Source of the DNA: Burkholderiales bacterium
GTDB lineage: Bacteria > Pseudomonadota > Gammaproteobacteria > Burkholderiales > Casimicrobiaceae
Reading direction: 5' to 3'
Length of the DNA stretch: 64,000 nt
Assembly: GCA_025354165.1 (NCBI GenBank)
Contig: JANXNI010000029.1
Location: 124,001 to 188,000, forward strand
Position numbers and translations under genes: made by a program. Under the pieces are notes generated by a model. It saw only the letters and a list, made by a program, of their open reading frames with translations, had not been told where the DNA came from and made no database searches. This document shows, piece after piece, positions 2,145-55,450 of the stretch (within the stretch, counting starts at the first letter, position 1; the number at the start of each line of letters is the position of its first letter).

Positions 2145-2258
2145 AGCTTTCGTTTGTAATGACCATTGCATAGGGGATAAGAGCGATAAATGGCCTAAGT
2201 CGATAAGTCAGTAAATGAGCCATCAGCCCCAATAAATAGTAGATTTACACATAAAGCT
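2145..2258. repeat. 114-bp intergenic palindrome, copy A
   Basis: The element begins AGCTTT and ends AAAGCT, with its centre in AAGTCGATAAG exactly 57 nt from each end. It carries TGCATAGGGGATA in the left arm and CAGCCCC in the right. It starts 32 nt after the stop of the dehydrogenase gene, in a convergent intergenic region. Confidence 0.85.
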
Positions 2259-2311
2259 GTTAGTAGAAAAACTCAATTCGGCTCAATATTCCCGGCCTTC
2301 ACGACGGGCCT

Positions 2312-2557
2312 CTAACGCTCGATTTCACGTTTAATCACCTGAGCAAACGCTTCGGGCGCGGTGGGTGCCGCGACGACGCCCTCACTTTGCAAACGACGCC
2401 TAAGTTCTGCCGACGCGAGCGCTGTGTTGATCTGAGCCCTCCCCTTCGTAACGATCGCGGCGGGCGTGCCAGCGGGGGCTTTCGCCGCCTTATCCGCCGC
2501 GCCCATCAAACGGCTCGAAGGCAGGTAACGCGCCCTCCGGGAGGATATTCGTTCCAA
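2312..2557 (-). pseudogene. Remnant of a Bug-family receptor (C-terminal part only)
   Basis: The reading frame contains APAGTPAAIVTKGRAQINTA, then SAELRRRLQSEGV and FAQVIKREIER, which is the last quarter of a Bug receptor. About 240 N-terminal residues and the signal peptide are missing. The frame is continuous with dctM and separated from it only by the dctM TGA. This suggests a deletion that removed the start of the receptor and the true end of dctM. It is unlikely to make a functional protein. Confidence 0.75.
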
Positions 2558-3886
2558 TCAGCTGCCGGTTCCAACGAGGAACAGGCACCTCGCGGGAAAC
2601 ATCAGCAACAGCGCAATACGAATGAAATCCGAAGCCAGAAACGGCATGACGCCTTTAAACGTTTCCGACAGCGGTACATCGCCCGCCAGCCGATTGATGA
2701 TGTAGACGTTCATGCCGACGGGTGGATGTACGAGACCGATCTCGACCACCATCAACGCGAGGATGCCAAACCACACGCTCTTGTCGGTCTGCGTCATGCC
2801 GTGAAACTCCAACCCCATCACGATGGGATAGAAAATCGGGATCGTGAGCAGGATCATCGCGAGGCTGTCCATCACGCATCCGAGCACGATGTAGATCAGC
2901 AAAATCACGATCATCACCAGCATCGGCGAGAGGCCGCTGCCCTTGACCCACGCCGCCAGTTCAACTGGCATTTGCGATAGCGCGAGAGCCGTGTTCAGCA
3001 TGTCGGCACCGAGTAGCACCAGAAAGATCATCGCGGTGGCCTGTGCGGTGCCGAGCGCGCTGTCGATGATGCCTTTCATGCGCATGCCGCCGCTGACAAT
3101 GGCCAGCACACCGCACGCCGCGGCACCGATAGCTGCTGCTTCCGTCGGATTGGCCCAGCCACCGTAAATGCCAATGATCACGACCGCGAAAACGGCCAGC
3201 ACAGGCGCTACGGCAAGCAGTGCTTTCAAGCGTTCCGCCCAACCCATGCGCTCCCCGGCAGGGCCGGCCTTGGGATCAAGCGTGACGACAATACGCACCA
3301 CAATCATGTAGCCCACCATCGCCACGAGGCCCGGAATGACGGCGGCGACGAACAATTTGCCAATCGATTCTTGCGTCAGGATGGCGTAGATCACCAGTGG
3401 CACCGACGGTGGAATCATGATGCCGAGCGTGCCACCGGCAGCGAGCGCGCCGGTCGACAATGCTCCGGAATAGCCCCGTCGCTTGAGTTCAGGCAACGTC
3501 ACTTGTCCCATCGTCGCCGCTGTCGCCAGCGACGAACCACAAATCGCGCCGAAGCCCGCGCAGGCACCAATCGCGGCCATCGCGACGCCACCTTTGAGAT
3601 GCCCCATGAACGCTGACACGAAGCGGAAAAGCGCAGCGCTCAGCCCGCCATTCGTAGCGAACTGCCCCATCAGCAAAAAGAGCGGGATTACGACGAGATC
3701 GTAATTCGACAAGCGTGCGTAGGCAACCGTCTTCAAGACGTTCAGCAACGGCGTAATTTCGAGTCCTGTGAGGAACACGTATCCCGCAGCGCCCATCGCA
3801 AACATCGCGATGCCGATGGGTATGCGGATGGCGAGCAACACCATCAACAGACCGAAGATCGTGCAGCCCGCAGCGATGCCACTCAT
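2558..3886 (-). CDS. dctM: TRAP transporter large permease DctM
   Basis: This is a hydrophobic protein of about 442 residues with many membrane spans and DctM signatures such as GACAGFGAICGSSLATAATM and MIPPSVPLVIYAIL. It forms the channel for Na+-driven uptake of an organic acid together with DctQ and DctP. I place the start at the ATG overlapping the dctQ stop by 4 nt (ATGA); longer upstream extensions are out of character for the family. The C-terminus, FPARCLFLVGTGS, is atypical and abuts a receptor remnant, so the last few residues may be replaced. Confidence 0.9.
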   Translation of the reverse strand: MSGIAAGCTIFGLLMVLLAIRIPIGIAMFAMGAAGYVFLTGLEITPLLNVLKTVAYARLSNYDLVVIPLFLLMGQFATNGGLSAALFRFVSAFMGHLKGGVAMAAIGACAGFGAICGSSLATAATMGQVTLPELKRRGYSGALSTGALAAGGTLGIMIPPSVPLVIYAILTQESIGKLFVAAVIPGLVAMVGYMIVVRIVVTLDPKAGPAGERMGWAERLKALLAVAPVLAVFAVVIIGIYGGWANPTEAAAIGAAACGVLAIVSGGMRMKGIIDSALGTAQATAMIFLVLLGADMLNTALALSQMPVELAAWVKGSGLSPMLVMIVILLIYIVLGCVMDSLAMILLTIPIFYPIVMGLEFHGMTQTDKSVWFGILALMVVEIGLVHPPVGMNVYIINRLAGDVPLSETFKGVMPFLASDFIRIALLLMFPARCLFLVGTGS

Positions 3887-4431
3887 GCTGACACTCCCGC
3901 ATTTTCCGAGCGCTTTTTCCAGTGATACGCCGCCATGTAAAAACCGGCCAGCGCAAACAGCGCAAAGCCCGGCACCATGAGCATCTGCGCAATCCACTGT
4001 GGAATGCCGAGAATCATGCTGGTCTCCTCCGAGCGCATGACCTGCAATGCGCCGAGCGTGGTTCGCCAGGTCAGGAGCGCACCGACGGTACCAAACAGCA
4101 ACGAGCCGAATGCATCCAAAAGATGCACGACGCTTGGGGCAAGTTTTGCGGTAAAGAAATCTACCTTCACATCACCACCATTCATGTGGCAATAGGCAAA
4201 GAACATGGCTGCGGCGACCGCCGAGCTCATTTGCAACAGCTCAACGTCGCCCGGCACTGGTGCCGACGCCAATTTGCGACCCACGATGGAGACGATGCTC
4301 ATGATGACCAGCAGCACAAAAATGCCGCCGCCAAGAATGGCCGCAGCCCGCGAAACAGCAAGCAGAAGTCGGCCAAACGGGCCGAAAGCGCGCGGGTCTA
4401 CCGAGGGCGCACCGGGAATCGGTTCCTGCAA
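3883..4431 (-). CDS. dctQ: TRAP transporter small permease DctQ
   Basis: This 182-residue protein has about four membrane helices, the usual size and topology of the DctQ subunit. The segment around SIVGRKLASAPVPGDVELLQ is typical, including a polar residue following the first helices. DctQ bridges the periplasmic binding protein and the DctM channel. The gene lies between dctP (55 nt upstream) and dctM (4-nt overlap), so the three form one operon. Confidence 0.9.
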   Translation of the reverse strand: MQEPIPGAPSVDPRAFGPFGRLLLAVSRAAAILGGGIFVLLVIMSIVSIVGRKLASAPVPGDVELLQMSSAVAAAMFFAYCHMNGGDVKVDFFTAKLAPSVVHLLDAFGSLLFGTVGALLTWRTTLGALQVMRSEETSMILGIPQWIAQMLMVPGFALFALAGFYMAAYHWKKRSENAGVSA

Positions 4432-4486
4432 AGGATTCTCCTGGAAGTGTTGAGTGGAGCGGCGTGAGCGCCGCCCGTTCCGCCGT

Positions 4487-5527
4487 TTATTTGCCGCCGT
4501 TCTTGGCGATCAAATCACGCGCAGCCTCAAGCAGCTGCTTGCCGTTGGCACCTTTGGCCGTTACGTCGGTCACCCACTGGTCGATCAGCGGTTGGCCCAC
4601 TTTCTTCCAGTTTTCGAGTTCCGATTTCGGGATCACGTTGAAGGTGTTTTTCGCTGCGGTTTTTTTGCCTTCGGCATCGGCGGCCAGAAATACTTTGCCA
4701 ATCTGACCGGAGAATTCCTTGCCGCTGTTGGCATCGATCACCTTTTTCAAATCGGCAGGCAGGCTGTCGTATTTCGCCTTGTTCATCGCGAAGATGAATG
4801 TCGATGTGTAGAACGCTTTTTCGGTCGGGTCAGTTTCCGAGTGAAACTTCACCAGCTCCTGAATCTTCACGGAAGGCACCACTTCGTACGGCACGACAGC
4901 ACCATCGATCACGCCTTTAGCGAGCGCTTCACCGACTTGAGGCACTGGCATCGCAACCGGTGTTGCGCCCAGCGCCGCGAGGAATTTGTTGGTCTGGCGC
5001 GTCGGCGCGCGCAGCTTCAGGCCCTTCAGATCCGCCATCGTTCTGACCGGCTGTTTAACCATGTGAAAGACGCCTGGCCCGTGCACGTGGGTGGCGATCA
5101 GTTTGTAATCCTTGAACTCATTGGGCGCGTACTGTGCGACGTAGTCCCACAGGGCTTTGCTGGTTGCCTCTGGTCCAGTCATCATGAACGGCAGTTCAAA
5201 TACTTCGGTCAGTGGGAAGCGTCCAGCCGTATAGCCCGGCAACGTCCAGATCACATCTACCGTGCCATCACGCAGCTGGTCCACGAGCTGTGGCGGCGTG
5301 CCACCGAGCTGCATCGAAGGGTAGAGCTGACATTTGATGCGGTTGTTCGATTCCTTGTTGATACGGTCGCACCAGGGCGCGATAAATTGAGTGTGGGCAT
5401 ACGAGCCCGCAGGTAAAAAATGGTGAACTTTGAGCGTCACCTCTTGCGCAGCGGCGCTGGTGGCAAGCAATGTCAGAGGAATGACCGCCGATAGGGCGGC
5501 GCAAAGGCGAGTGAAAGTGCGGGACAT
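4487..5527 (-). CDS. dctP: TRAP transporter substrate-binding protein DctP
   Basis: This 346-residue protein has a signal peptide ending TSAAAQEVTLKV and the DctP fold. MADLKGLKLRAPTRQTNKFL in the middle contains the conserved arginine that binds the substrate carboxylate in this family. It is the first gene of the dctP-dctQ-dctM operon, and its ATG is preceded by GGAGG (minus strand). Closest to the LysR/lig region, it may import an aromatic acid or its breakdown product, but that is inference from location only. Confidence 0.92.
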   Translation of the reverse strand: MSRTFTRLCAALSAVIPLTLLATSAAAQEVTLKVHHFLPAGSYAHTQFIAPWCDRINKESNNRIKCQLYPSMQLGGTPPQLVDQLRDGTVDVIWTLPGYTAGRFPLTEVFELPFMMTGPEATSKALWDYVAQYAPNEFKDYKLIATHVHGPGVFHMVKQPVRTMADLKGLKLRAPTRQTNKFLAALGATPVAMPVPQVGEALAKGVIDGAVVPYEVVPSVKIQELVKFHSETDPTEKAFYTSTFIFAMNKAKYDSLPADLKKVIDANSGKEFSGQIGKVFLAADAEGKKTAAKNTFNVIPKSELENWKKVGQPLIDQWVTDVTAKGANGKQLLEAARDLIAKNGGK

Positions 5528-5824
5528 GTGGGGCCTCCAGTGTGCGGTTGTTGTGTTTTGTGAGTAGCGCGGTCACTAAAACGTCGGCGTCAGCATCGCG
5601 CGCTTTGAACCGAACCGGCGGATATCAACGTTGATGAACCCTCGGCTCCTTCAGTGGTATTTTGACTGTGATACTAGCAAAACGACAGCGCTAACGGCGG
5701 CTAACAGATATAGCAGTTCAGCATTTCTGACGATCCGATATGTGAGCGTTTCTGCCGACCACTACGGCGGCCGTTTTGCTCACAGCCAACGTCGACCGCC
5801 CGAAAGTGTCTGAAGTTGAGCAAT
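5528..5824. other. Intergenic region upstream of dctP, no gene seen
   Basis: This AT-richer stretch should hold the dctP promoter and part of the 3' flank of the LysR gene. The part at about 5690-5815 looks like a degenerate non-coding remnant, with no convincing reading frame. I see no RNA gene or clear operator. Confidence 0.5.
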
Positions 5825-5938
5825 CACTTTTCGCTAGAAGCTAGAGCACATAAGGGCTACCCGCAAATAACGCCAAAACTCGATAATGCCGCTTTATTAC
5901 CGCCACACCATACGAAATGGACGTTGTAGCGCAAAGCT
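5825..5938. repeat. 114-bp intergenic palindrome, copy B
   Basis: The left end CACTTTTCGCTA pairs with the right end TAGCGCAAAGCT. The centre AACTCGATAA falls 57 nt from each end. It lies 1 nt beyond the stop codon of the LysR gene and is one of the more diverged copies. Confidence 0.7.
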
Positions 5939-5939
5939 G

Positions 5940-6875: not shown

Positions 6876-6921
6876 AGCCGCTCCGTCAGGCCGGTTAACG
6901 AGGGCAATGGTATGCCAATCT

Positions 6922-6936: not shown

Positions 6937-6983
6937 GTCATTAAACGTTTTCTGTTTAGTCAGTTAGGCGCGAAAATGTGCCC

Positions 6984-11324: not shown

Positions 11325-11439
11325 AGCTTTTTTTGCGTAACTCAATGTGCACAGGGGATAGATCGCGATTTAACGTAAAGTCAACTATTGCCTAAATTAC
11401 CACCTATCCCCGTTCTACTGGCGGCTGCATCAAAAAGCT
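11325..11439. repeat. 115-bp intergenic palindrome, copy C
   Basis: The ends are AGCTTTTTTTG and CAAAAAGCT, and the centre is AAAGTCAACTATT. CACAGGGGATAG in the left arm pairs with CTATCCCC in the right. One extra T in the terminal T-run explains the 115-bp length. It sits inside the lig operon, between the Bug gene and ligI. Confidence 0.88.
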
Positions 11440-13723: not shown

Positions 13724-14677
13724 ATGAGTAAAACGATCAAAGTGGCCCTGGCTGGTGCTGGTGCGTTCGGCACCAAACATCTCGACGCGATCAAACTGAT
13801 TGACGGCGTGGAAGTAATTTCGCTGATCAGCCGCGACCTTGAAAAGACCAAAGAAGCAGCCGCGAAATATGGCATTGGTCACGTCACCACGAACCTCGCC
13901 GATAGCCTTGCGCTTAAGGAAGTTGACGCAGTGATTTTGTGTACGCCCACGCAGATGCATGCCGATCAAAGCATCGCCTGCATGAAGGCGGGCAAGCACG
14001 TGCAGGTGGAGATTCCGCTGGCCGATTCGCTTGCGGGCGCGGAAGCGGTGGCTGCGCTGGCGAAGCAGAGCGGCCTGGTCGCGATGTGTGGCCACACCCG
14101 CCGCTTCAACCCGAGCCATCAGTACGTCCACAACAAGATCAAAGCGGGCCAATTCAACATTCAGCAAATGGATGTGCAGACCTATTTTTTCCGGCGCACC
14201 AACATGAATGCGCTCGGTCAGGCGCGCAGCTGGACAGATCATCTGCTGTGGCATCACGCGGCGCACACCGTGGATCTGTTCGCTTATCAAACCGGTGGCG
14301 AAATTATCAAAGCGAACGCCGTGCAAGGTCCTATCAACCCTGCGCTCGGTATCGCTATGGACATGTCGATTCAGTTGAAGAGCAGCACCGGCGCGATCTG
14401 CGCGCTGTCACTCTCCTTCAACAACGACGGCCCGCTCGGCACCTTCTTCCGCTACATCGGCGACAGCGCGACCTACATTGCGCGCTATGACGACCTGTTC
14501 AACGGCAAGGACGAAAAAATTGATGTGAGCAAAGTGGCTGTTTCAATGAACGGTATTGAGCTACAGGATCGCGAATTTTTCGCTGCGATTCGTGAGGGTC
14601 GTGAACCGAATTCGAGCGTTGCGTCCGTATTGCCGTGCTATCGGGTGTTACATCAGCTAGAGCAGCAACTTGCATAA
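13724..14677 (+). CDS. ligC: 4-carboxy-2-hydroxymuconate-6-semialdehyde dehydrogenase
   Basis: This 317-residue protein of the Gfo/Idh/MocA fold has the dinucleotide motif ALAGAGAFGTKHLDAI and the LigC segments MQTHADQS-like MHADQSIACMKAGKHVQVE and MCGHTRRFNPSHQY. It oxidises the hemiacetal form of the ring-cleavage product with NADP+ to give 2-pyrone-4,6-dicarboxylate, the LigI substrate. It is the last gene of the operon; palindrome D starts 25 nt after its stop. Confidence 0.93.
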   Translation: MSKTIKVALAGAGAFGTKHLDAIKLIDGVEVISLISRDLEKTKEAAAKYGIGHVTTNLADSLALKEVDAVILCTPTQMHADQSIACMKAGKHVQVEIPLADSLAGAEAVAALAKQSGLVAMCGHTRRFNPSHQYVHNKIKAGQFNIQQMDVQTYFFRRTNMNALGQARSWTDHLLWHHAAHTVDLFAYQTGGEIIKANAVQGPINPALGIAMDMSIQLKSSTGAICALSLSFNNDGPLGTFFRYIGDSATYIARYDDLFNGKDEKIDVSKVAVSMNGIELQDREFFAAIREGREPNSSVASVLPCYRVLHQLEQQLA

Positions 14678-14702: not shown

Positions 14703-14816
14703 AGCTTTTCGCCAAAAGCACCACTGCATAGGGATTATCTGCCAAATATATGAAAAGTCGATAAGTGGAAAAATGCGCTAACAGCCCCGATGAAATGGGG
14801 CGTGCAACGAAAAGTT
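14703..14816. repeat. 114-bp intergenic palindrome, copy D
   Basis: The ends are AGCTTTTCGCC and CAACGAAAAGTT, and the centre AAAGTCGATAAG is 57 nt from both ends. The left arm has CTGCATAGGGATTA. It lies between the ligC stop and the 3' end of tRNA-Pro. Confidence 0.88.
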
Positions 14817-14839: not shown

Positions 14840-14916
14840 TGGTCGGGGTGAGAGGATTCGAACCTCCGGCCTCTACGTCCCGAACGTAGCGCTCTACCAG
14901 GCTAAGCTACACCCCG
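14840..14916 (-). tRNA. tRNA-Pro (anticodon CGG)
   Basis: The minus strand folds into a full cloverleaf. The acceptor is CGGGGTG/CACCCCG, the D arm has AGCCTGGTAGAGCG, and the anticodon stem CTACG/CGTAG encloses loop TTCGGGA (anticodon CGG). The T arm carries GGTTCGAATCC, and CCA is encoded. It reads CCG codons. It is transcribed away from ispB's direction of termination, in a region bounded by palindrome D. Confidence 0.96.
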
Positions 14917-17320: not shown

Positions 17321-18394
17321 TTACCGCCGCTCTAACCGATACAGCATCACCGCGCCCGCCGATAAAAAAATCAGTCCCGGCAGCACCGCCCCGAGCACCG
17401 GTGGCCATTCGTGCAGCAGCGCCAGATATGAGAACAAACGGTTGAATACGATGAACACCAGGCCGAGCAAAATGCCGACGAAGATTCGCGTTCCGATGCC
17501 GCTTGCGCGCTGCTGAATCTGCGCAAACGGCATCGCCAATAGCATCAATACGCAGGTCGCCAGTGGATAGAAAAACTTGCCCCACAGCGCAACCTCAAAC
17601 CGTCGCGAATCCTGATTATTCGCTCTCAGGTGCGAGATGTACTCCCACAGTCCTGCGATCGATAGACGTTCTGGCTCAATTTGCAGCACTGACAACATAT
17701 TCGGCGTCAGCACCGTGTTCCAGGCCATGTGCTCATATTGCTGCACGCTCACACCACCGCCCACCGCGAACGTGGTTTCCAGCACCTGATTGAGTCGCCA
17801 TTGCTGGCCGTTCTGAAAGGTCGCGCCATCCGCAATCAGGGTACGCGCCAGTGTGGTCGCGTCGGAGTACTGAAACACGCGCACCGTCTTCAACGTTCCG
17901 TCAGGCAATACGCTGGCGATATTGATGAAAGTGTTGCCATCCTTGAACCAGAACCCGGTCTCGAACGCGCGTCCGACCAGCGGACGCTCGCCAGAAAAGG
18001 CGCGAACCCGCATTACCAGCTGTTCGGCCCGTGGTACGACATATTCACCCACCACAAACACGATGCCCGCGATCACGAGGCTCACACTCAGCAGCACGCC
18101 CGCCACCTGTAACACCGAAATCCCCGATGTTCGCATCACGCCGTATTCACTGTTGGCCGCCAACTGCGCGAGCGCGAACAGCGTGCCGATCAGCGCTGCG
18201 ACGGGCAGCAATTCATAGAGAAATCCCGGAATTTTCGCTGCCACGAGTACCAGTATCTGTGTAGTATTGAGCGCCTTGAGCGAACCCAGTTCTGCTAGCA
18301 AATCGTAGAAGACCCACAGCATCAGCAGCGCCGCCAAAACAGACAGCGTTGATAGCGCAACTTCCTTGGCGATGTAGCGACTTAGCGTCTTCAC
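17321..18394 (-). CDS. lptG: LPS export permease LptG
   Basis: This 357-residue YjgP/YjgQ-family protein starts MKTLSRYIAKEVALSTLSVL. It has membrane helices at both ends and a periplasmic beta-jellyroll domain in the middle. With LptF and LptB it extracts lipopolysaccharide from the inner membrane for the Lpt bridge. Its ATG overlaps the lptF stop by 4 nt. The C-terminal helices include GIGTRIFVGILLGLVFIVF. Confidence 0.93.
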   Translation of the reverse strand: MKTLSRYIAKEVALSTLSVLAALLMLWVFYDLLAELGSLKALNTTQILVLVAAKIPGFLYELLPVAALIGTLFALAQLAANSEYGVMRTSGISVLQVAGVLLSVSLVIAGIVFVVGEYVVPRAEQLVMRVRAFSGERPLVGRAFETGFWFKDGNTFINIASVLPDGTLKTVRVFQYSDATTLARTLIADGATFQNGQQWRLNQVLETTFAVGGGVSVQQYEHMAWNTVLTPNMLSVLQIEPERLSIAGLWEYISHLRANNQDSRRFEVALWGKFFYPLATCVLMLLAMPFAQIQQRASGIGTRIFVGILLGLVFIVFNRLFSYLALLHEWPPVLGAVLPGLIFLSAGAVMLYRLERR

Positions 18395-19515: not shown

Positions 19516-19720
19516 GTATTGGGGGCAGTCTTACTTGGGGCTGCAATGCGGTTCTAGAAATTCACTTTATCGGGATGCAGTGTTAGGCGCGCGGCACGGA
19601 GCAACCGGAATGTACGCTTTTGTACATGAGGATTGCGAGTGCCGCGCAACGACACAATGCGCCCGAGAAATGAATTTATAGAACTGCATTTAGCGATAAT
19701 TAGAGAGTTTACCTACCTAC

Positions 19721-21742: not shown

Positions 21743-22414
21743 ATGAGTACGCCGACAGCCAAAGAACTGCTCGCCCAAGCCGACCGCCTGATGCGGCAGC
21801 GAACGCCGGAAGAGTTGCCGGTGCTCACCGACCTGGTGATTGAAGAAATCGAAATTCCCAGCCTTTCGGATCGAATGGACGAGGTCATTCCCACCCATTC
21901 GCGACCGGCGTGGATGCCATCGTTGTCGGCCGCATCGCATGCGATACCGCCCACAGCGAAACCGGCGGCAATGCAACCCGCGCCTGCGCCAATTGCGCCA
22001 GCGCAGGCTGCCGCCGCACAGTCTGAGCGGTCGCCGCCACTGTCGGAGCTGTTTGCCGGACGCTCACAACCGAAACAGGGTGCACCTTCTGCGGGGCTGA
22101 CGCCCGAAGGCCCCAATAGCCAGACAGCAATGTTCAGCGTGCGCGAAAAGTTCAATGAGCAAATGCTGGCGAAAATGGAGGAGCTGCAACACAGCGTCTT
22201 CAGCCAAGTCATGCAAAAGCTTGAAATCCAGGCGTCCGGATCACTCAAAGTGCATCTGCGCCAGACGCTTGAGCCCGTGCTGATCGGCATTGCACGCGAC
22301 CTTGCCGAGCAGGTTGCGGAGGACACGGCAGCGCAAGTGAGGCAGGTGGTTTCCGACGCGGTGGACGCAGAGATTGCTCGCCTTCGTGAGCAGTTTGCGA
22401 AGAAGCGGCTTTGA
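21743..22414 (+). CDS. Conserved hypothetical protein between holC and valS
   Basis: This 223-residue protein has three parts. There is an N-terminal acidic segment with RTPEELPVLTDLVIEE, then a long Pro/Ala-rich disordered linker (about 55-130) and a helical, probably coiled C-terminus starting VREKFNEQMLAKMEELQ. It resembles the uncharacterised proteins found at this locus in Burkholderiales (DUF2486-like, from memory). No catalytic motif or signal peptide is visible. Its function is unknown; location suggests a housekeeping or replication-linked role. Confidence 0.75.
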   Translation: MSTPTAKELLAQADRLMRQRTPEELPVLTDLVIEEIEIPSLSDRMDEVIPTHSRPAWMPSLSAASHAIPPTAKPAAMQPAPAPIAPAQAAAAQSERSPPLSELFAGRSQPKQGAPSAGLTPEGPNSQTAMFSVREKFNEQMLAKMEELQHSVFSQVMQKLEIQASGSLKVHLRQTLEPVLIGIARDLAEQVAEDTAAQVRQVVSDAVDAEIARLREQFAKKRL

Positions 22415-22442
22415 AGCCGCGCTTCGAGCCTTTTACATGGTC

Positions 22443-22556
22443 AACTTTTCGCTGAAATGGCGTTCGCTAAAGGCATAGAGCGCCATTAGTGCAATAGTCA
22501 ACTTATGGATGAATGAACGTTTAGCCCTTAATGGAGCGTCGTTGTAGCGAAAAGCT
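22443..22556. repeat. 114-bp intergenic palindrome, copy E
   Basis: The ends are AACTTTTCGCTG and TAGCGAAAAGCT, and the centre ATAGTCAACTTAT is 57 nt from each end. It starts 28 nt after the stop of the hypothetical gene, upstream of valS. Confidence 0.88.
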
Positions 22557-22633
22557 GTATTGTCGTTAAGTACAATACGAAGTCTATTTTTTGATCGTTT
22601 CGCGCCTTCACAGAAGCGCGCTCGCCTCACATC

Positions 22634-27951: not shown

Positions 27952-27984
27952 GCGATTAATTATCGCTGTTGCGGCGCAGGCTTG

Positions 27985-28084
27985 GCCCCTCTGCGTTGAG
28001 GGGAGAGGGTGCCGTTGCTTCAGGAAAGATAGTTGCTTATGCGACCGCCCCCCTCACCCAAGCCCTCTCCCGCGAGGGGAGAGG
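27985..28084. repeat. CCCTCTCCC-type intergenic repeat
   Basis: Two short stem-loops, CCCCTC-TGCGTTG-AGGGGAGAGGG and CCCTCTCCCGCGAGGGGAGAGG, lie in the 305-bp gap before the fasciclin gene. A shorter relative occurs at 31928-31951. Such repeats are common between proteobacterial genes. Confidence 0.6.
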
Positions 28085-28256
28085 GGACAAGAACAGAGTC
28101 GAGTCATTCGCGAACGCGCACATGAATGCGCACGCTCGCATCCGGAAGAGCACGCGCACCCGGAAAAAACCAGATGACATCGACATGCGTAAGGCTCCCC
28201 ATCGCTGGAATCAATGGTTGGTTCCGGTTGTTCAAATGCTTAAAAGTGGAGTCTTC

Positions 28257-31174: not shown

Positions 31175-31288
31175 AACTTTTTACCAAAATGACCGCTGCA
31201 TTGGGGCTAAGGCGGGAAAAATGCTTAAGTCGACTATTACACAATTTAGACGCCAGTCCCTATGCATTGGCGGTTTCTGGGCAAAGCT
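31175..31288. repeat. 114-bp intergenic palindrome, copy F
   Basis: The ends are AACTTTTTACC and GGGCAAAGCT, and the centre TAAGTCGACTATT is 57 nt from each end. CTGCATTGGGGCTA (left) mirrors AGTCCCTATGCATTGG (right). It is the only copy not next to a 3' end: it lies in the 357-bp divergent gap between rhlE and rubrerythrin, where no gene is visible. Confidence 0.9.
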
Positions 31289-31977: not shown

Positions 31978-33327
31978 ATGGCAGTAGAAGGCAATCTTCA
32001 GGCCCCGACGCGTCACGTCATCGACTGGAAAAATCCGGACTTTTTTAACGAGGAATCGTTGAACAGAGAGTTGGAGCGCGTTTACGACATTTGCCACGGT
32101 TGCCGTCGTTGCGTGAGTCTGTGCAACAGCTTCCCGACCCTGTTCGATCTGATTGACGAATCGAAGACGTTCGAGGTCGACGGGGTCGACAAAAAAGACT
32201 TCATGAAAGTCGTCGACCAGTGCTATCTGTGCGACGTCTGCTACATGACGAAATGCCCGTACACGCCGCCGCACGCGTGGAACGTGGACTTCCCGCATTT
32301 GATGCTTCGCGCGAAGGCTGTGAAGTACAAAAAAGGCGAAATCGGTATCGCCGAAAAATTTCTCGCATCGACCGATACGCAAGGCAAATTTGCAGGCATT
32401 CCGATCATTGTGCAAACCGCCAACGCGATCAACAGTACGAAATTCGCACGCGGCGTCATGGAGAGCCAGATGGGCGTTGATAAAGACGCCTGGATTCCAT
32501 CGCTTGCCACGAAGAAATTCCGCTCGCAGGCGAAAGCTGCAACGCATACCAGCGCGCCTGTGAAAAACGGTGAACGTACGCCAGGAAAAGTGGTGATCTT
32601 TTCTACTTGCTACGTGAACTATAACGAGCCTGGCATTGGCATGGATCTACTCCGCGTGCTGACGCACAACGACATCACGTTCGAGATCGTAAACAAAGAG
32701 AAATGTTGCGGCATGCCGAAGCTCGAATTGGGCGATCTGGACGGCGTTGCTGAACTCGCAAGTTTCAATCTGCCTGTCCTCGCGAAGTACTCGCGCGACG
32801 GTTACGCGATCCTTACCGCTATCCCTTCTTGCACGCTCATGTTCAAGCAAGAAATTCCGCTCTTGCTGCCGGATCATCCTGATGCGAAAGTCGTACAGGC
32901 TGCGATGTGGGATCCGTTTGAGTACCTGATCGCGCGGCAAAAAGATGGCCTGCTGAAGACCGACTTCAAATCAGAATTGGGCCATGTCAGCTATCACATT
33001 CCGTGTCACAGCCGCGTGCAAAACGTCGGTAAGAAGACGGAAGAAATGTTGAAACTCGTTCCCGGCACGACGGTCAATACGGTTGAGCGTTGCTCCGGTC
33101 ACGCTGGCACGTACGGCGTGAAAAAAGAGCATCACAAAACCGCCATGAAAATCGGCAAACCGGTGTTCAAAGCAATGATGCTGAACACGCCCGACTACAT
33201 CTCGTCAGACTGTCAGCTCGCGGGGCATCACATTGAACAGGGCATTCGCGAAGCGGGCCTTGCTCCGGACAAAACGCCTGAGCTTTCGCATCCGATGAGC
33301 CTTATCGCCAAGGCGTACGGACTGTAG
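31978..33327 (+). CDS. Heterodisulfide-reductase-like Fe-S / CCG-domain protein
   Basis: This 449-residue protein has two 4Fe-4S motifs, ICHGCRRCVSLCNSFP near residue 38 and CYLCDVCYMTKCPYTPP near residue 81. Two CCG-type cysteine clusters follow, around NKEKCCGMPK and ERCSGHAGTYG. This matches GlpC/HdrD-type electron-transfer proteins. It lies between rubrerythrin and DUF3501, a trio I recognise from other proteobacteria. It probably passes electrons to the rubrerythrin, which is inference. TTTTGGAG precedes the chosen ATG. Confidence 0.88.
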   Translation: MAVEGNLQAPTRHVIDWKNPDFFNEESLNRELERVYDICHGCRRCVSLCNSFPTLFDLIDESKTFEVDGVDKKDFMKVVDQCYLCDVCYMTKCPYTPPHAWNVDFPHLMLRAKAVKYKKGEIGIAEKFLASTDTQGKFAGIPIIVQTANAINSTKFARGVMESQMGVDKDAWIPSLATKKFRSQAKAATHTSAPVKNGERTPGKVVIFSTCYVNYNEPGIGMDLLRVLTHNDITFEIVNKEKCCGMPKLELGDLDGVAELASFNLPVLAKYSRDGYAILTAIPSCTLMFKQEIPLLLPDHPDAKVVQAAMWDPFEYLIARQKDGLLKTDFKSELGHVSYHIPCHSRVQNVGKKTEEMLKLVPGTTVNTVERCSGHAGTYGVKKEHHKTAMKIGKPVFKAMMLNTPDYISSDCQLAGHHIEQGIREAGLAPDKTPELSHPMSLIAKAYGL

Positions 33328-33407
33328 GAGCGGCTTGCCGCGACCACGTTCGTCAATACTTGAGCCGTTGATAAGTCCAACCGGGTCGCGGCAAGCCGCT
33401 CCCACAA
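33324..33407. repeat. GGAGCGGCTT-type inverted repeat, copy 2
   Basis: Arms GTAGGAGCGGCTTGCCGCG and CGCGGCAAGCCGCTCCCAC are almost perfectly complementary. The TAG stop codon of the Fe-S gene is part of the left arm. The repeat separates it from the DUF3501 gene. Confidence 0.85.
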
Positions 33408-35400: not shown

Positions 35401-35526
35401 AGCTTTTTGATGAATCCTTTATTACATAAGGGATAGGTCAAAGAAAATTAAAAAGTCGACTTGTCGCATAAATGGGCAGTGTGGCGGCTTGCCTGGAGCG
35501 CCATTGCAGCTCGATCAGCTAAAAGC
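35401..35526. repeat. Intergenic palindrome, copy G (longer right arm)
   Basis: The left arm is intact: AGCTTTTTGATG, then ACATAAGGGATAGG, and centre AAAAGTCGACTTG 57 nt in. The right arm is about 12 nt longer and ends near AGCTAAAAGC. It lies in a 397-bp gap (35168-35564) with no other recognisable feature, 38 nt beyond the stop of the TPR fragment. Confidence 0.7.
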
Positions 35527-37812: not shown

Positions 37813-37911
37813 GTTCGGTTAGCTCAAGAAAATTCTGTGGGAGCGGTTCCACCGCGATTGCCCGTTGCGACAGAAATCGCGGTAGAACCGCTCCCACAGT
37901 CTTAACCGAAC
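37813..37911. repeat. GGAGCGG-type inverted repeat, copy 3, with outer arms
   Basis: CTGTGGGAGCGGTT and AACCGCTCCCACAG form the inner arms, with ACCGCGATT/AATCGCGGT inside. An outer pair, GTTCGGTTA/TAACCGAAC, extends the palindrome. It fills much of the 351-bp gap (37755-38105), which shows no gene. Confidence 0.8.
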
Positions 37912-42411: not shown

Positions 42412-42525
42412 GGCTTTTTCGTGAAATGACGGCTGCATGAGGGTTAGACGGCAATCTTCGATAGAGTCAATATTTTGACTTTTGGCGCTCTAGCCCCTGT
42501 GCAACGGTCGATACATGCGAAAGCT
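42412..42525. repeat. 114-bp intergenic palindrome, copy H
   Basis: The ends are GGCTTTTTCGTG and CATGCGAAAGCT, and the centre GAGTCAATA falls 57 nt in. Left GCTGCATGAGGGTTA mirrors right TAGCCCCTGTGC. It lies 9 nt beyond the stop of the YqaA gene in the convergent gap after the ThDP enzyme gene. Confidence 0.88.
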
Positions 42526-44205: not shown

Positions 44206-44293
44206 CTTGTAGGAGCGGCTTGCCGCGACCCGAACCGCTCAATCGCGACACTGACACAGTATTGACGCGGTCGCGGCAAGCCGCTCCTACAAG
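44206..44293. repeat. GGAGCGGCTT-type inverted repeat, copy 4 (perfect arms)
   Basis: Two perfect 25-bp arms begin CTTGTAGGAGCGGCTTGCCG and end at GGCAAGCCGCTCCTACAAG, with a 38-nt spacer. It separates pnuT from the TonB receptor gene and could modulate the transcript between them. Confidence 0.9.
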
Positions 44294-46503: not shown

Positions 46504-46569
46504 CGAATTTCCTTTATCGACGGCAGGGCAGAAGTACACGAACTAACCCGGAGAAACCGGATGAAATCG

Positions 46570-46664
46570 GCGACGCTTCCCTGCGCAAGAATTACCTTGA
46601 TCAAGTTCCAGGGTGTCATCTCAGCCGCCTTCCGCACAAATTCTGCGGAAGCCAGCACCCCTAG
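46570..46664 (-). promoter_or_regulatory. TPP riboswitch (THI element)
   Basis: Read on the minus strand, the sequence has GGGGTGC, a variable hairpin CTTCCGC/GCGGAAG, the invariant GGCTGAGATGACACCCTGGA, then GAACTTGATCAAGGTAATTC and CAGGGAAG closing the P1 stem. All conserved TPP-binding cores (CTGAGA, ACCCT, GAAC-TTGATC, GGGAA) are in order. It precedes the TonB receptor by about 65 nt. Confidence 0.95.
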
Positions 46665-46805
46665 CGTTTATGGGCATGCAATCTGCATGTCCACAATGAA
46701 TTGTAGACGCGAGCGAAGGCGACAACTCTTTTACACTCGCGCCTGACGAAAATTGTGATGCGGCGCTGGCTGCCGCAAGCTCCCAAAATCGACGAGGATT
46801 GACTG

Positions 46806-48300: not shown

Positions 48301-48414
48301 AGCTTTTCGGCGATGTGACGTTTGGATGCGGGCTAGAAGCGGTAAACGACATTTGTCGACTTGGCGAAAAATGCACCTCGTTCCGCTGGCAATAGCCTTT
48401 CTAGCGCAGAGTTA
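48301..48414. repeat. 114-bp intergenic palindrome, copy I
   Basis: The left end is AGCTTTTCGGCG and the right end is GCGCAGAGTT. The centre TTGTCGACTTG is 57 nt in, and the left arm has GGATGCGGGCTA. It starts 28 nt after the stop of the symporter gene. Confidence 0.85.
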
Positions 48415-50534: not shown

Positions 50535-50543
50535 CTTAGCTGT

Positions 50544-52091
50544 CTATTCCAGCAACAATGGAATCCACAACGTCCCCAGTATCGCCAGCAGACAAATCGC
50601 AATAATCGCTAGCCAGACATTCGTCCAGCCGGTGCTCGTACGCACGACCACAGAAGCAGGCGGCGAGTTCCGCTGCTCCAGCGCCTGATGAATCAGGCGT
50701 GGCACCTGCGGCAATGCGCTGGAGAGATAGGGCGCTTGTTCAATCAGGCGCTGCCACATCGCTTCGGGCCCTACCTGATCGCGCATCCATTTTTCGAGGA
50801 ACGGCTGTGCGGTGGCCCATAAATCGAGGTACGGATCAAGCTGACGACCGAGGCCTTCGACGTTGAGTAGCGTCTTTTGTAGCAGCACCAGTTGCGGCTG
50901 AATCTCAACGTTAAATCGTCGTGACACCTGAAACAGTCGCAGTAGCACTTTGCCAAACGAAATGTCCGCCAGCGGGCGATCAAAAATGGGTTCGCAGACG
51001 CTGCGCACGGCGCTTTCCAGTTCATCCACGCGCGTGCCAGGCGGCACCCAGCCGGACTCAATGTGCGCGGTGGCAACTCGGCGGTAATCGCGGCGAAAGA
51101 ACGCCAAAAAATTCTCGGCCAGATAGCGCCGATCATTGTCATTCAACGTGCCGACGATGCCGAAATCCATGCCGACGTACTGGCCCAGATTTTCTAGATT
51201 GGTGCGAACAGCGATATTGCCCGGATGCATGTCTGCGTGAAAAAAGCCATCGCGAAATACTTGTGTGAAAAAAATCTCAACACCATCGCGTGCCAGCCTT
51301 TTGATGTCAACGCCCGCGGCTCTCAGTTTGTCAATTTGACTCACCGGCGTCGCGTACAGCCGCTCCATGACCATCACGGTTTGCTCGCACCAGTCCCAGT
51401 GCACTTCGGGCATGTAAAGGAGCGGCGAACCCGCGAAGTTTCGGCGCAGTTGCGAGCAGTTACCCGCTTCGCGCACGAGATCCAGTTCGTCATGTAAATA
51501 CTTGTCGAATTCGGCGACGACTTCGCGCGGTTTCAGGCGGCGACCGTCGGCGCTGAATCGCTCAACCCAACCCGCAAGTACGCGCAGTATCGCGAGATCA
51601 CTCTCGATCACCGGCTTGATATTGGGACGCAATATTTTGATGGCGACATCGCGACTCTCAAAGGTGTCGGCAACTTTCAGCTGGATCGCGCCGAAATGCA
51701 CTTGGGCGACGCTGGCGCTGGCAATCGGCGTCCAGTCGAAGCTGGCGAACACCTGATCAACCGGTCGCCCGTAGGCTTTTTCCAGTACTACCTTCACTTC
51801 TTCTGCCGGAAATGGCGGCACACGATCTTGCAGCAGGGACAATTCGCTTGCGATATCAGGCGGGATTAAATCGGGGCGCGTCGACAGCACCTGTCCGAAC
51901 TTGACGAAGCACGGGCCGAGCGATTCGAGCGCCAGCCGGAGCCGTGCGCCACGCGGCGCGTCGTGTTTGCGTGACCCGAGCAATTTTCCGAGGCCGCGTA
52001 GCAGCAGATTGGGAGAATCAGTGAGTACAAATTCGTCGAGTCCATATCGGTGAAAGACGCTGACGATTTTGGCAAGACGGAATAAACGCAT
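50544..52091 (-). CDS. ubiB: Ubiquinone biosynthesis kinase-like protein UbiB
   Basis: This 515-residue member of the ADCK/UbiB family has the KxGQ motif in [17 protein letters not shown], the Ala-rich loop [23 protein letters not shown] and a DFG-type MDFGIVGTL. Two C-terminal membrane helices follow. UbiB supports ubiquinone synthesis in the inner membrane. No ubiE or ubiJ is adjacent; instead the DprE-like pair follows by 9 nt. Confidence 0.95.
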
Positions 52092-52159
52092 GCCTCGATT
52101 CTAAGAGGCGTCGCTGGTGAGCTTGTCTATCATCCGAAGTGCAGAGAAAGGATTTCATC

Positions 52160-53629
52160 ATGAACGTCTTGCCCGTATCGACGGATGTCTACGCAGCCGA
52201 CCCATTGTTTGATCTGGCCCCAGTGTCGTTGTGGTTAGAAGATTTCAATGCGGTTTACGAGTTGTTGCAGTCGTGGCGCATCGCGGGTGTGACCGACATT
52301 GGCAAATATCTGTCAGAGCGACCCGCCGGGATCGCAGAGTATTTTTCGCGCATCAAAGTGCTGAAAGTCAATCAGCGCACGCTGGATTTGTACGGCGCGA
52401 AGGACGTGAGTGCGTTACTGGCGGCGGGCGACACCCTGTTCGATAACAGCGACACGTCTGCTGCGATTGCTGAAATCTCGAAGCTCTGGAATGGCGAGAC
52501 GTCCTACCAGACCGAGACGATCAATTACACGCTTGATCGCCGTGCGCTGAACATTCGCCTTAACGTGAATCGTCTGGAAAACGTTGCCCGACCGTGGGAT
52601 CGCATGCTGATGGCGCTTGAGGATTTCACCGAGCAGAAGCGGGCTGAGAAGTCAGCAGCTGAGAACGAGGCTTATGCCCGCGCGCTGTTCGATCTTTCGC
52701 CTGTGTCTTTGTGGGTTGAGGATTTCAGCGAAGTCAAAGACATGTTGGACGATGTTCGCGCTCAGGGCATCACCGACTTCCGCACTTTTGTGGATGTGCA
52801 TCCTGAGTTCGTGTTGTCGTGCATGGAGCGTATTCGGGTGATCGACGTAAATCGGCAAACGCTGACGCTCTTCGGCGCCGCCAGCAAAGACGAATTGCTC
52901 GGGCGGTTGTCGGAGATTTTTCGTGACGAAATGTCGCGTTCGTTTGGCGAGCAGTTGCTTGATTGCTGGAACGGCTCGCTGTTTCAGTCGAGAGAGACGC
53001 TTAACTATTCGCTACGAGGGGATCCAATTCATTTGCACATGCAATGGGCAGTGTTACCGGGGCACGAGTCGAAATGGGATCTTGTGCAAGTCGCGCTCAC
53101 GGACATCAGTGCGCGAAAAAAGGCCGAGACGTATCTCGAATTCCTCGGCAAACATGACGCGCTTACCAAGCTGCGCAATCGTGCGTTCTACGATGACGAA
53201 ATCAGCCGTCTGAATCGGCGTGGGCCGTTTCCAGTTGGCGTGCTGTCGATCGATTTGAACGGCTTGAAGCGCGTCAATGACGAGTTTGGTCATGCTGTGG
53301 GCGATGCGATGTTGCGGCGTGCGGGAGAGGCGCTGAAAAAGACGTTGGGAGAAATTTTGCAGGCCGCACGCGTGGGCGGCGATGAATTCGTCTGCTTGCT
53401 GCCGCGTTATGGCCCCGCTGAGGTCGCGACGCTCAAGGAGAGCCTGCGTATGGTCGTCGAGTTGAATAATCAGTTCTATCAGGGCCCGCGACTGTCGTTG
53501 TCGGTGGGCTCGGCTGTGTGCGACCGCGCGGGTGAGCTGGAGCTTGCGCTGCGCGCTTCCGATGACGCGATGTATGTGGCGAAGCGTGCGTATTACGCGG
53601 CAGAAGGTTTGGATCGGCGAGGAGCGTAG
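52160..53629 (+). CDS. Diguanylate cyclase with two duplicated PAS-like domains
   Basis: This 489-residue protein has a C-terminal GGDEF domain with RVGGDEFVCLLPRY near residue 415, so it can make c-di-GMP. No RxxD inhibitory site precedes it. The N-terminal half contains two related segments, one starting LFDLAPVSLWLEDFNAVYEL and the other LFDLSPVSLWVEDFSEVKDM, an internal duplication of a sensory PAS-like unit. There is no membrane helix, so it senses a cytoplasmic signal. The ATG at 52160 has AAAGGA upstream. Confidence 0.9.
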   Translation: MNVLPVSTDVYAADPLFDLAPVSLWLEDFNAVYELLQSWRIAGVTDIGKYLSERPAGIAEYFSRIKVLKVNQRTLDLYGAKDVSALLAAGDTLFDNSDTSAAIAEISKLWNGETSYQTETINYTLDRRALNIRLNVNRLENVARPWDRMLMALEDFTEQKRAEKSAAENEAYARALFDLSPVSLWVEDFSEVKDMLDDVRAQGITDFRTFVDVHPEFVLSCMERIRVIDVNRQTLTLFGAASKDELLGRLSEIFRDEMSRSFGEQLLDCWNGSLFQSRETLNYSLRGDPIHLHMQWAVLPGHESKWDLVQVALTDISARKKAETYLEFLGKHDALTKLRNRAFYDDEISRLNRRGPFPVGVLSIDLNGLKRVNDEFGHAVGDAMLRRAGEALKKTLGEILQAARVGGDEFVCLLPRYGPAEVATLKESLRMVVELNNQFYQGPRLSLSVGSAVCDRAGELELALRASDDAMYVAKRAYYAAEGLDRRGA

Positions 53630-53714
53630 TCTGGCTCCTGCAACACGCAGCACGGATTTCTTTAAAATCAAGGCGTTGCATCCTTCTTCGCTCGCCTAAT
53701 CCGCGTGCTTGCTC

Positions 53715-54911
53715 ATGCCCGATCCTTCAGCGCCGATTCTCTGGCAATTTTCCCTCTCGACAATCAACGCCCTCGTGTGGCTTTTGCTGTTGTTGCTCGG
53801 ACTTGTCATGGGGCTCAAGATGCGCTGGGGACGGCTGGTTGCCATCACGGCATTTTTAACGCTTGATCTGATTGCGTTCGGCGCTTTTGTGCGGCTCACC
53901 GACAGCGGGCTCGGCTGTCCGGATTGGCCCGGTTGCTACGGGCAATTGCTACCGGCACAGGCCAGCACACAAATCAATCAGGCCATCGTGGATCAAGGGG
54001 GGGCGCACGGCCCGGTGAACCACGTCAAGGCGTGGATCGAGATGCTGCATCGCTATGTGGCGTCGTTCATCGGTGTGCTGATTCTGGTCATGTGTGTGCG
54101 TGCGCTGATCGCCAAATTTCGCGATGGAGGTTCGTCATGGTTGCGTGCGGCGAATGAATTCGGCTCTGTAAGTGTGGGCTTGGCGTGGCCGCTGTTGCTG
54201 TTGATCGTTGTGAGCCTGCAAGGTTTGTTCGGCAAATGGACGGTGACACTGAAGCTGATGCCGATTGTCGTTACGACGCATTTGATGGGCGGCATGCTGC
54301 TGTTCGCGCTTTTGATCTGGTTCTGGATGCGCGAACGGCACCGCGCGGGCGAGACGCGCGCGATGACGATTATGGTGTCTGGCGGCGTGAAAGTGATCGT
54401 TTGGGTCGCGGTGATCACACTGGCGGTACAAATTTTTCTTGGCGGCTGGGTTAGCACCAACTACGCAGTCATGGCGTGTGGCGATTTCCCCGGATGCAAT
54501 GGTCAATTGCAGCCCACCGTGGCGTGGAATGAGGGCTTCACGCTGTTGCGTGCGCTGGGCCGCAACCCCGACGGAAGCTTTCTCTCGATAGAGGGCTTGC
54601 GTGCAATCCACTGGGCGCATCGTGTCGGGGCATTAGTCACGACCGTTGTGGTGATCGCGGCTGCGGTTGCGCTGCTGCGCGCGCATGCGGCGCTGCGTCG
54701 ACAGGCGATATGGATTAAAACCGCGCTGCTGCTGCAAGTCGTGATTGGCATCAGCACGGTGCACTTCGCAAAGCCGATTCTGCTGGCGACGGCGCACAAC
54801 TTGGTTGCCTCTGCCTTGCTCGCCATGCTGCTAGTCGCGGCGTATCGCGTCAGTGGTCCGAAATCCACGACCGATTTCGCGGTTTCGACGACACTTCGTA
54901 AGCAAAAGTAA
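53715..54911 (+). CDS. ctaA: Heme A synthase
   Basis: This protein of about 398 residues and 8 helices has the CtaA signatures AFGAFVRLTDSGLGCPDWPG and HRYVASFIGVLIL, plus WVSTNYAVMACGDFPGCNG and HWAHRVGALVTT (heme-ligand histidines). It converts heme O to heme A for cytochrome oxidase. The usual partners ctaB, surf1 and ctaG are absent from the window, so the gene stands alone here. Confidence 0.93.
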   Translation: MPDPSAPILWQFSLSTINALVWLLLLLLGLVMGLKMRWGRLVAITAFLTLDLIAFGAFVRLTDSGLGCPDWPGCYGQLLPAQASTQINQAIVDQGGAHGPVNHVKAWIEMLHRYVASFIGVLILVMCVRALIAKFRDGGSSWLRAANEFGSVSVGLAWPLLLLIVVSLQGLFGKWTVTLKLMPIVVTTHLMGGMLLFALLIWFWMRERHRAGETRAMTIMVSGGVKVIVWVAVITLAVQIFLGGWVSTNYAVMACGDFPGCNGQLQPTVAWNEGFTLLRALGRNPDGSFLSIEGLRAIHWAHRVGALVTTVVVIAAAVALLRAHAALRRQAIWIKTALLLQVVIGISTVHFAKPILLATAHNLVASALLAMLLVAAYRVSGPKSTTDFAVSTTLRKQK

Positions 54912-54996
54912 CAGCCCCCTTGGCGGGCCATTCGCGTCAACGGCTTATTCCAGCGCATCGTTTTGTAACAACATTCGCAAATTCAGGGAGACCGTC

Positions 54997-55335
54997 ATGC
55001 GCCAGCCATCAACCCGTTTAATTTCTGCTGCCCTCACCAGCTGCGCGCTGGCACTGGTTGCCGGCGGTTGCGCCGTCGCGGTGCGCGGCCCTCTCCCTCT
55101 GGGGCCAGTGGTTTACGTGGATCGCGCGCCGCCTGCCCCGTACAACGAAGTGGTCACCGTTGCGCCGGGGCCGGGTTATGTCTGGATTGGCGGGTATCAC
55201 GGCTGGACAGGCCGCGACTACGTGTGGAATCGCGGTTACTGGACGTTGCCAGCGCGCGGCTATACCCGCTGGAGTCCCGGTTATTGGCATCGTGACGGTC
55301 GCGGCCACTACTGGATTGCCGGTCGTTGGCAATAA
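54997..55335 (+). CDS. Small lipoprotein with YXWxxGYW-type repeats
   Basis: This 112-residue protein has a lipoprotein signal with AGGC near residue 26. Repeats of aromatic-Gly motifs follow: GYVWIGGYHGW, YVWNRGYW, YTRWSPGYWH and YWIAGRW. This resembles the WXXGXW/BcpO-related family found in the envelope of many Burkholderiales. The role is unknown, possibly outer-membrane anchored. GGGAG lies upstream of the ATG. Confidence 0.88.
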   Translation: MRQPSTRLISAALTSCALALVAGGCAVAVRGPLPLGPVVYVDRAPPAPYNEVVTVAPGPGYVWIGGYHGWTGRDYVWNRGYWTLPARGYTRWSPGYWHRDGRGHYWIAGRWQ

Positions 55336-55336
55336 C

Positions 55337-55450
55337 AGCTTTTCGGCTAAACGACCACAGCGCAGGGGTTATAGGTCGTTTTGTTGAAATGTCAACTATG
55401 CCATATTTTTGCGTTTAGACCCAATGTACAGGTCGTTTCATTGAAAAGCT
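55337..55450. repeat. 114-bp intergenic palindrome, copy J
   Basis: The ends are AGCTTTTCGG and TTGAAAAGCT, and the centre ATGTCAACTATG is 57 nt in. Left ACGACC and right GGTCGTTT pair. It begins 1 nt after the lipoprotein stop and is the tightest copy to a stop codon. Confidence 0.9.

Follow-up and report, generated by a model that had tools for sequence, protein, structure and literature searches.

Several kinds of short chromosomal sequence in bacteria invite comparison with the element described here. Sites of the matS, SlmA and parS types are chromosomal, vertically kept, protein-read and roughly 12-20 bp long, and REP and BIME sequences bind gyrase. The element in question is a palindrome of 114 bp that occurs ten times in a 64,000-nucleotide stretch of a Burkholderiales genome (contig JANXNI010000029.1, positions 124,001 to 188,000), which is called the window throughout. 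REP palindromes are 20-40 bp long (PMC3733652), and REPs and BIMEs bind several proteins (PMC2817692). ERIC elements (IRU) measure 127 bp and have 7-bp terminal inverted repeats (PMC2229807); they resemble the present element in being intergenic repeats of similar length, with up to hundreds of copies per genome and some copies at gene 3' ends (PMC10969869, PMC2229807). The Pseudomonas fluorescens repeats R0, R2 and R178 (89, 110 and 101 bp) are intergenic and again of similar size, some with inverted repeats and with a bias toward convergent gaps; R0 and R2 are possible miniature inverted-repeat transposable elements (MITEs) (PMC2718517). The Escherichia coli DNA gyrase motif is symmetric, spans ~130 bp and has flanks whose G+C oscillates with a period of 10.75 bp; cleavage by gyrase is more frequent downstream of operons that are transcribed (PMC6379681).

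Each of these likenesses has its limits. As a vertically kept chromosomal site with a putative reader, the element resembles matS, SlmA and parS sites, but it is ~120 bp long at full extent, would be wrapped over ~200 bp, numbers hundreds of copies by extrapolation and lies mostly behind stop codons. It shares a dispersed, intergenic, palindromic character with REPs, BIMEs and REPINs, but differs from these families and their RAYT proteins in having a 120-bp dyad rather than a 20-40 bp palindrome (PMC3733652) and in a distribution that Y1_Tnp genes do not follow. Unlike ERIC, it has no recent copies, is constrained box by box in place, has phased flanks and is evenly spaced. The preliminary description of the window had held that the sequence is not ERIC, which agrees with an nhmmer search in which the family model had no match to a single E. 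coli ERIC copy up to E 10; a length of 114 bp in 67 of 76 copies and a consensus that is symmetric over its whole length also differ from the ERIC length and ends. Near-identical copies, as expected of MITEs, are missing: the maximum identity is 0.675 among the 73 of 87 copies compared. The P. fluorescens families belong to a host of another class and are likened by description only. With the E. coli gyrase motif and the phage Mu gyrase site, the element shares two-fold symmetry, G+C phased at ~10.8 bp without conserved arm bases and a position downstream of transcription units; it differs in its strong base-specific boxes, its phasing 60-100 bp out, a profile that misses the Mu site, and its rarity or absence in congeners with closely similar GyrA.

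The evolution of the elements fits docking sites for wrapping better than hairpins or jumping DNA. Protein binding and wrapping at the elements is quite probable, and the fuller proposition, that they are sites maintained in place where a dyad-symmetric protein wraps DNA, is somewhat likely. The properties computed here are the family itself, its length, intergenic placement and spacing, the lack of arm co-variation, box conservation, a change in box distance and the phased flanks.

Extent and anatomy of the family

All ten window sites named in the preliminary description carry the element, and the dispersed intergenic palindrome family of near-fixed length that it proposed is real. A sequence-only model built from the ten copies recovers them on both strands, which it does by construction, and has no other match within the window up to E = 5. 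In the whole host genome (G000; G001 is its nearest relative and other G numbers are congeners), at least 150 matches were obtained with 150 of 1491 first-look candidates scored; the window's ten are included and some sites are counted once per strand. A census with a profile from 50 G000 copies gave 87 copies in 855,815 bases of G000 and no match in the same bases reversed. Extrapolation suggests about 480 copies in the whole of G000, which may be slightly too high.

Fifteen of the 30 relatives searched have matches, G000 included, and all belong to one genus. Matches number at least 125, or come close to it, in G000, G001, G004 (114), G005, G006, G012 and G014, followed by G003, G008 and G013 (27-34), G009 (11) and G002, G007, G011 and G015 (3-5), with none in G010 and G016. 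At E 0.001 the copies found by the profile number 26 in G001 (228 kb), 30 in G005 (400 kb), 20 in G012 (240 kb), 16 in G014 (241 kb), 2 in G013 (160 kb) and 0 in G007 (120 kb). At E 0.01 the counts are 21 in G012, 18 in G014 and 7 in G013, and a contiguous 440 kb of G005 contains 29 copies. A sample of 300 genomes that covers 134 genera of the order gave six matches under strict filters, all from the same genus. In a separate comparison, 80 betaproteobacterial valS loci yield matches at L043 and L056 only. ValS relatives place the window in the Betaproteobacteria, with close metagenome-assembled genomes at 89% (L043), 84% (L056) and 80% (L044) identity. Among the genomes searched, the family thus appears confined to one betaproteobacterial genus. 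No paper was recognised as describing a 114-bp family of this kind in the literature searched, in which subscription journals are poorly covered.

Length was measured by locating both end boxes independently. Model coordinates, which pad an end without a match out to 114, put 79 of 87 copies at 114 nt. Exactly 114 bp was found in 67 of the 76 copies with both end boxes, the other nine being 115 bp (five) and 109, 113, 116 and 117 bp (one each), while 11 of 87 copies have no recognisable box at one end. Arms of 57 + 57 nt had been reported for eight window copies; the constancy of length stands, but the count falls to seven of ten at exactly 114 nt (Table 1). The symmetric consensus of 73 in-register 114-nt copies (14 of 87 were dropped for length, contig edge or register) is AACAGCTTTT..GCTGAAA...C...TGCAT.GGGGCTA.......AATT......AAGTC/GACTT and its mirror, where the slash marks the dyad. 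It holds 81 bits over 114 columns and 86 over 120. The conserved block outgrows 114 bp, with 1.13, 0.46 and 0.76 bits in the next three bases outward, so that the full block is AACAGCTTTT...AAAAGCTGTT, or ~120 bp; each of the nine columns beyond has 0.03-0.1 bits. A/T-rich minima lie ~4, 13, 24, 32-35, 44 and 53 bp from the dyad.

Age and maintenance in place

The elements appear to be old, not moving now and maintained in place. Mean pairwise identity among the 73 copies is 0.525, and near-identical recent copies are absent from this set. The spread of identity is 0.0467, compared with 0.0408 (standard deviation 0.0011) when columns are shuffled independently, and the copies behave almost as if each had been drawn independently from a single matrix, although their spread is slightly wider. 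All eight G000 sites whose syntenic region is covered by the sampled G001 sequence are filled, as are 13 of 19 in farther relatives (G012 7/11, G005 2/3, G014 4/5); with the conserved strong columns described below, this is the pattern of matS-like sites kept in place by selection. Sites of G005 are filled in G012 (4/4), G000 (2/6) and G001 (1/1), and in none of those sampled in G014 (0/2), G007 (0/2) and G013 (0/4). At the valS site a full-length element is present in G000, G001, G004, G005, G006, G012, G013 and G014, while G003 has part of an element and G015 a weak partial match (E 0.098); the site is empty in G002, G007, G009, G010, G011 and G016 (G008 was not sampled there). The site at window position 31175, followed in 15 congeners, has a good match in G001 and G005, a partial one in G014, a weak core in G013 and G008 and no match in ten; loss here looks like erosion. 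Element-rich genomes fall in both main branches of a GyrA tree, on which G014 was placed with 23% of columns, and repeated loss, with at least three changes, is the simpler reading. Where sites in relatives are empty or eroded, flanks are too diverged for target-site duplications to be read.

Orthologous sites suggest what is being kept. Of 12 alignments, four were left out because lengths differed or orthology was uncertain. In the eight remaining G000/G001 pairs, all of 114 nt, the 38 strong columns are identical at 0.83, the 44 middle columns at 0.53 and the 32 weak columns at 0.39, against 0.79, 0.48 and 0.33 in non-orthologous pairs. Agreement of the strong columns with the consensus is 0.87 and 0.86. 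The sites have lost almost everything but the motif, and the conserved strong columns and filled syntenic sites point to in-place selection on the boxes. A reading by recent mobility, hypermutation or replacement, in which elements diverge faster than flanks, was set aside when more pairs gave comparably diverged flanks.

The spacing of the boxes differs between lineages. Among arms that could be scored, the distance from the dyad to the start of the AGCCC box is 24 bp in G000 (38/44) and G001 (33/33) and 25 bp in G005 (26/36), G012 (12/14) and G014 (25/26). The end box lies at 52 in 60 of 67 G000 arms and 34 of 38 G001 arms, and in G012 it is found 5 times at 52 versus 24 times at 53; valS-site orthologs show the same box difference, as counted on the alignment. 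Because the sites are old, in place and without recent copies, the shift would be best explained by a changed spacing preference of a common trans-acting reader, with separate waves of insertion as a conceivable other source.

We regard it as improbable that the elements are an ERIC-like or MITE-like mobile family that spread once before the radiation and is now immobile, its conservation reflecting leftover transposase sites and target preference. Dispersed, intergenic palindromes with fixed ends would suit such a family, which would normally sit between genes (PMC10969869), and an origin by copying is hard to avoid, in that 81 bits are unlikely to have arisen independently hundreds of times. 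However, decay should strike all columns equally and bring indels, yet orthologs differ as sharply as 0.83 in strong and 0.39 in weak columns, and 67 of 76 copies keep 114 bp. Flank phasing survives in G000 despite saturation of the flanks, the shift of the box over the sites sampled suggests an ongoing reader, the 73 copies include no recent ones, and the consensus has no match in 72,556 plasmid and 50,697 phage records. The preliminary description had raised a recent insertion mechanism with fixed ends and a linked RAYT-type transposase. The first is not supported, given the lack of near-identical copies among the 73 and orthologous sites that are often filled genus-wide. The second is not supported either: Y1_Tnp counts do not track the elements (G000 has one copy, with a stop codon; G011 has seven and only three element matches) and show no phyletic link to them.

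Placement, symmetry and phased flanks

Placement was assessed against gene calls from a simple codon-usage caller, and spacing against a null with the same gaps and the same class rates in 3000 simulations. None of the 87 G000 midpoints lies within a called gene; 30 are in convergent, 41 in tandem and 16 in divergent positions, where gaps of at least 20 bp (element removed) number 85, 295 and 105, respectively. An adjacent 3' end is within 40 bp in 54 of 71 G000 copies (median 17), 21 of 25 in G005 (median 10), 16 of 22 in G001 and 9 of 14 in G012. Close neighbours are depleted in G000, with two under 2 kb where 12.1 are expected (0/3000 simulations as low) and 10 under 3.5 kb where 21.8 are expected (P 0.0003). 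The coefficient of variation of spacing is 0.71 versus 0.97 expected (P 0.002), and the single stretches C83, the full C72 and the window are significantly regular on their own. G005 has no neighbours under 3.5 kb, with 4.3 expected (P 0.008). The first 440 kb of its contig 1, with a mean spacing of ~15 kb, include 105 kb without an element, which is perhaps acquired DNA. At L201 3911-4186 in G001, two weak elements lie almost adjacent and so depart from the usual spacing.

Selection for a hairpin or cruciform had been suggested from the palindromic form and the constant length. Own arms form 29.75 Watson-Crick pairs of 57, compared with 29.20 (standard deviation 0.33) for arms dealt among the 73 copies; the excess of 0.55 is borderline (z 1.68, P 0.04), and an earlier sample of 40 copies gave z 1.27. 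Folding energies are -30.02 kcal/mol for own arms and -29.84 kcal/mol for swapped arms (z -0.33; 21/60 swaps as low). Pairing of own arms is thus barely above that of permuted arms, swapped arms fold as well, and hairpin or cruciform selection was dropped. Very improbable, in our judgement, are RNA or cruciform hairpins that act as bidirectional terminators or mRNA-end stabilisers behind stops, even though the sequence is palindromic, nearest 3' ends are close (median distance 17 bp for G000, 10 bp for G005), the pairing excess leans that way and four of ten window copies fold with z below -2.8: five of ten have z above -1.5 (range -4.88 to +0.30), 16 of 87 G000 copies lie between divergent genes, and the excess is so small. 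The palindrome is mainly a property of the consensus boxes rather than of arm pairing within copies, and as such it would be the mark of a two-fold symmetric protein site.

The flanks, which were not used in finding copies, were compared with rows rotated at random. In 158 flanks of G000, G+C oscillates in columns 5-44 past the end with a period of 10.9 bp, phased to the dyad, at a power of 0.105 (null 99%, 0.0128). Periods are 10.8 bp in G001, 10.5 bp in G014 and 11.3 bp in G005, with 0/2000 null sets as high in each. In columns 45-84, phasing is weak in G000 (P 0.0025) and not detected in G005 or the pooled other species. The phase of the A/T minima, modulo 10.75, is 2.78 in G000 and G001 together, 2.74 in G014 and 3.54 in G005. 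The G000 phase also holds where its bases differ from those of relatives whose flanks are saturated (identity 0.293; slope 0.084, P 0.0005). This phasing could come from selection on bendability or from a mutation pattern set by contact of the DNA with a protein, and either origin would imply DNA bent or wrapped to ~100 bp from the dyad.

The protein that wraps the DNA might be DNA gyrase, in which case the elements would be genus-specific strong sites at transcription-unit ends, cut at the GTCGAC dyad. Dyad symmetry with arm G+C phased at ~10.75 bp, as at strong gyrase sites, is indeed found (flanks 10.5-11.3 bp; G012 not significant), and the 10.9-bp flank period resembles that of the published motif, which is itself symmetric, with cleavage downstream of operons (PMC6379681). 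Published supercoil domains of 10 kb also suit gyrase (PMC3420936). Cryo-electron microscopy shows a gyrase wrap on the Mu site that resembles the element flanks in period. When the Mu site, whose record annotates a cut at 17879-17880, is centred after 17881, its A/T minima have a phase of 2.54 modulo 10.75, compared with 2.78 for the elements, and 1.75% of Mu centres match the elements' phase equally well (0.09% for the centre after 17882). But this match is a single site sought after the fact, and the centre after 17880 shows no periodicity. The element G+C profile misses the Mu site (z 1.43-1.92, rank 1005-2829 of ~36,600, for the best centre within 6 bp of the cut over seven scan widths) and correlates with it at 0.00 to 0.19 over 18-65 bp; phase alone agrees, at centres 17881-17882. 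Element phasing lies 60-100 bp from the dyad, beyond the 18-65 bp of E. coli; the phase within the element (18-50 bp) and the phase of the flanks differ by ~2 bp; and strong base-specific boxes are unexpected from the E. coli motif. GyrA is full-length in 13 of 17 genomes and fragmentary in four, and differs little between genomes that have elements and genomes that lack them. Neither its length and identity nor its C-terminal tail is peculiar, the wrapping domain not having been compared blade by blade. The evidence on gyrase is mixed; we consider it an unlikely wrapper and rank a putative dedicated protein above it. An HU/IHF paralog was rejected as reader, with two to four copies in every genome and four in G000 alone.

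Several results weigh against wrapping sites that are maintained in place and evenly spaced. No reader was found in the three families tested genus-wide, since Y1_Tnp, GyrA and HU/IHF do not track the elements. Copy density may be slightly high because several of the surveyed stretches were picked for known matches. Only two of nine G014 copies have a 3' end no more than 40 bp away (median 67), and the midpoint falls in a called gene in 2 of 20 G012 copies and 3 of 16 G014 copies. Neither C37 (P 0.20) nor the first 160 kb of C72 (P 0.12) is significantly regular alone, and the coefficient of variation in G005 is not reduced (1.14, P 0.87), because of its one empty 105-kb gap. The end-box shift is less clean than that of the AGCCC box (52 versus 53: 17/20 in G005, 11/13 in G014). 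The period that best fits the inner profile is 9.4-9.7 bp rather than 10.9, and G012 flanks alone show no significant phasing (36 flanks, P 0.31). At sites that differ from G000, relatives' bases ignore the G000 phase (slopes 0.017; G001 0.002), and substitutions preserve the A/T-or-G/C class in fractions of 0.371 (361 differing sites) and 0.340 (735 differing sites), where chance is ~1/3, so that selection on phase is putative.

The proposed mechanism would begin with a dedicated dyad-symmetric protein assembly that binds the ~120-bp two-fold symmetric site, with ~200 bp of chromosome wrapped or sharply bent round each bound site. Selection on the boxes and on the distances between them would hold old sites in place, and these sites would punctuate the G000 chromosome at intervals of ~10 kb, in most cases shortly after a stop codon. 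Transcription-driven supercoils would meet behind these stops, where the sites may wrap or anchor supercoils or place a topology enzyme at transcription-unit ends. This location makes chromosome topology the likeliest job, although a topological role is possible rather than probable and is held more weakly than binding and wrapping.

Window copies and wider meaning

The window copies are listed in Table 1, with stop distances from the same gene caller. Nine of ten had been placed 1-38 nt past a stop; the trend holds, but seven of ten are within 40 nt, or eight if the 160-aa open reading frame (ORF) ending at 55335 is a gene.

Table 1. Element copies in the window and one example of the putatively wrapped region
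Feature	Coordinates	Nearest stop (nt)	Context
Element copy, 114 bp	2145..2258	32	Convergent gap; stop at 2112, before the element
Element copy, 114 bp	5825..5938	1	Distance to nearest called 3' gene end
Element copy, 115 bp	11325..11439	11	Extra T in left end
Element copy, 114 bp	14703..14816	25	Stop at 14677 on one side, minus-strand tRNA gene 14843-14916 on the other
Element copy, 114 bp	22443..22556	28	Upstream of valS; same place in seven congeners full-length, partial in an eighth
Element copy, 114 bp	31175..31288	none	Between divergent genes; same place in G001 and G005
Element copy	35401..35520	50	Right arm expanded, poorly matching
Element copy, 114 bp	42412..42525	9	Convergent gap
Element copy, 113 bp	48301..48413	28	Convergent gap; G001 has two elements around ~4.2 kb here
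Element copy, 114 bp	55337..55450	63
Example wrapped region (putative)	22400..22599		Dyad 22499/22500 +/- 100 bp; phased G+C shown on pooled copies only

At the 48301 site, the ~4.2 kb between the two G001 elements (L196 8643-13038) hold a main ORF of 1294 aa, and a gene was apparently gained or lost exactly between two elements. The preliminary description had found no transposase in the window; none was found among the six window proteins run against Pfam. Rfam at gathering thresholds has nothing at the window's elements and finds only a tRNA and a TPP riboswitch, the latter at 46561-46672 on the minus strand. Other repeats also occur in the window. REP-like hairpins of type TGTAGGAGCGGCTTGCCGCGACC at 33323-33406, 37835-37899 and 44206-44293 are separate from the 114-bp family, and recall Pseudomonas REPs, here in a betaproteobacterium. 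A dispersed repeat of ~135 bp at 19548-19687 has eight places of at least 125 bp at 80-90% identity in G001, in addition to shorter matches. A short dispersed repeat at 28035-28100, inside a long palindrome at 27981-28091, is mostly 87-98% identical in several genus members.

Supercoil domains of ~10 kb in bacteria are usually thought to have variable borders set by transcription. A tentative proposal, which we hold to be rather less likely than its opposite, is that the elements form a hard-wired chromosome-folding code of 300-500 spaced wrapping sites (an extrapolated number) of ~200 bp each, most of them after transcription units, with a dedicated, losable, nucleosome-like or gyrase-like reader whose geometry shifted by 1 bp in one lineage, most sites following. 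If this is true, domain borders could be tested at the level of single bases on hundreds of spaced, sequence-encoded wrapping sites where transcription units end, and site losses within one genus would provide ready-made comparisons. Arm swapping, column rates in orthologs and phased flanks could also tell a palindrome family of this kind from hairpins or mobile relics by sequence alone.

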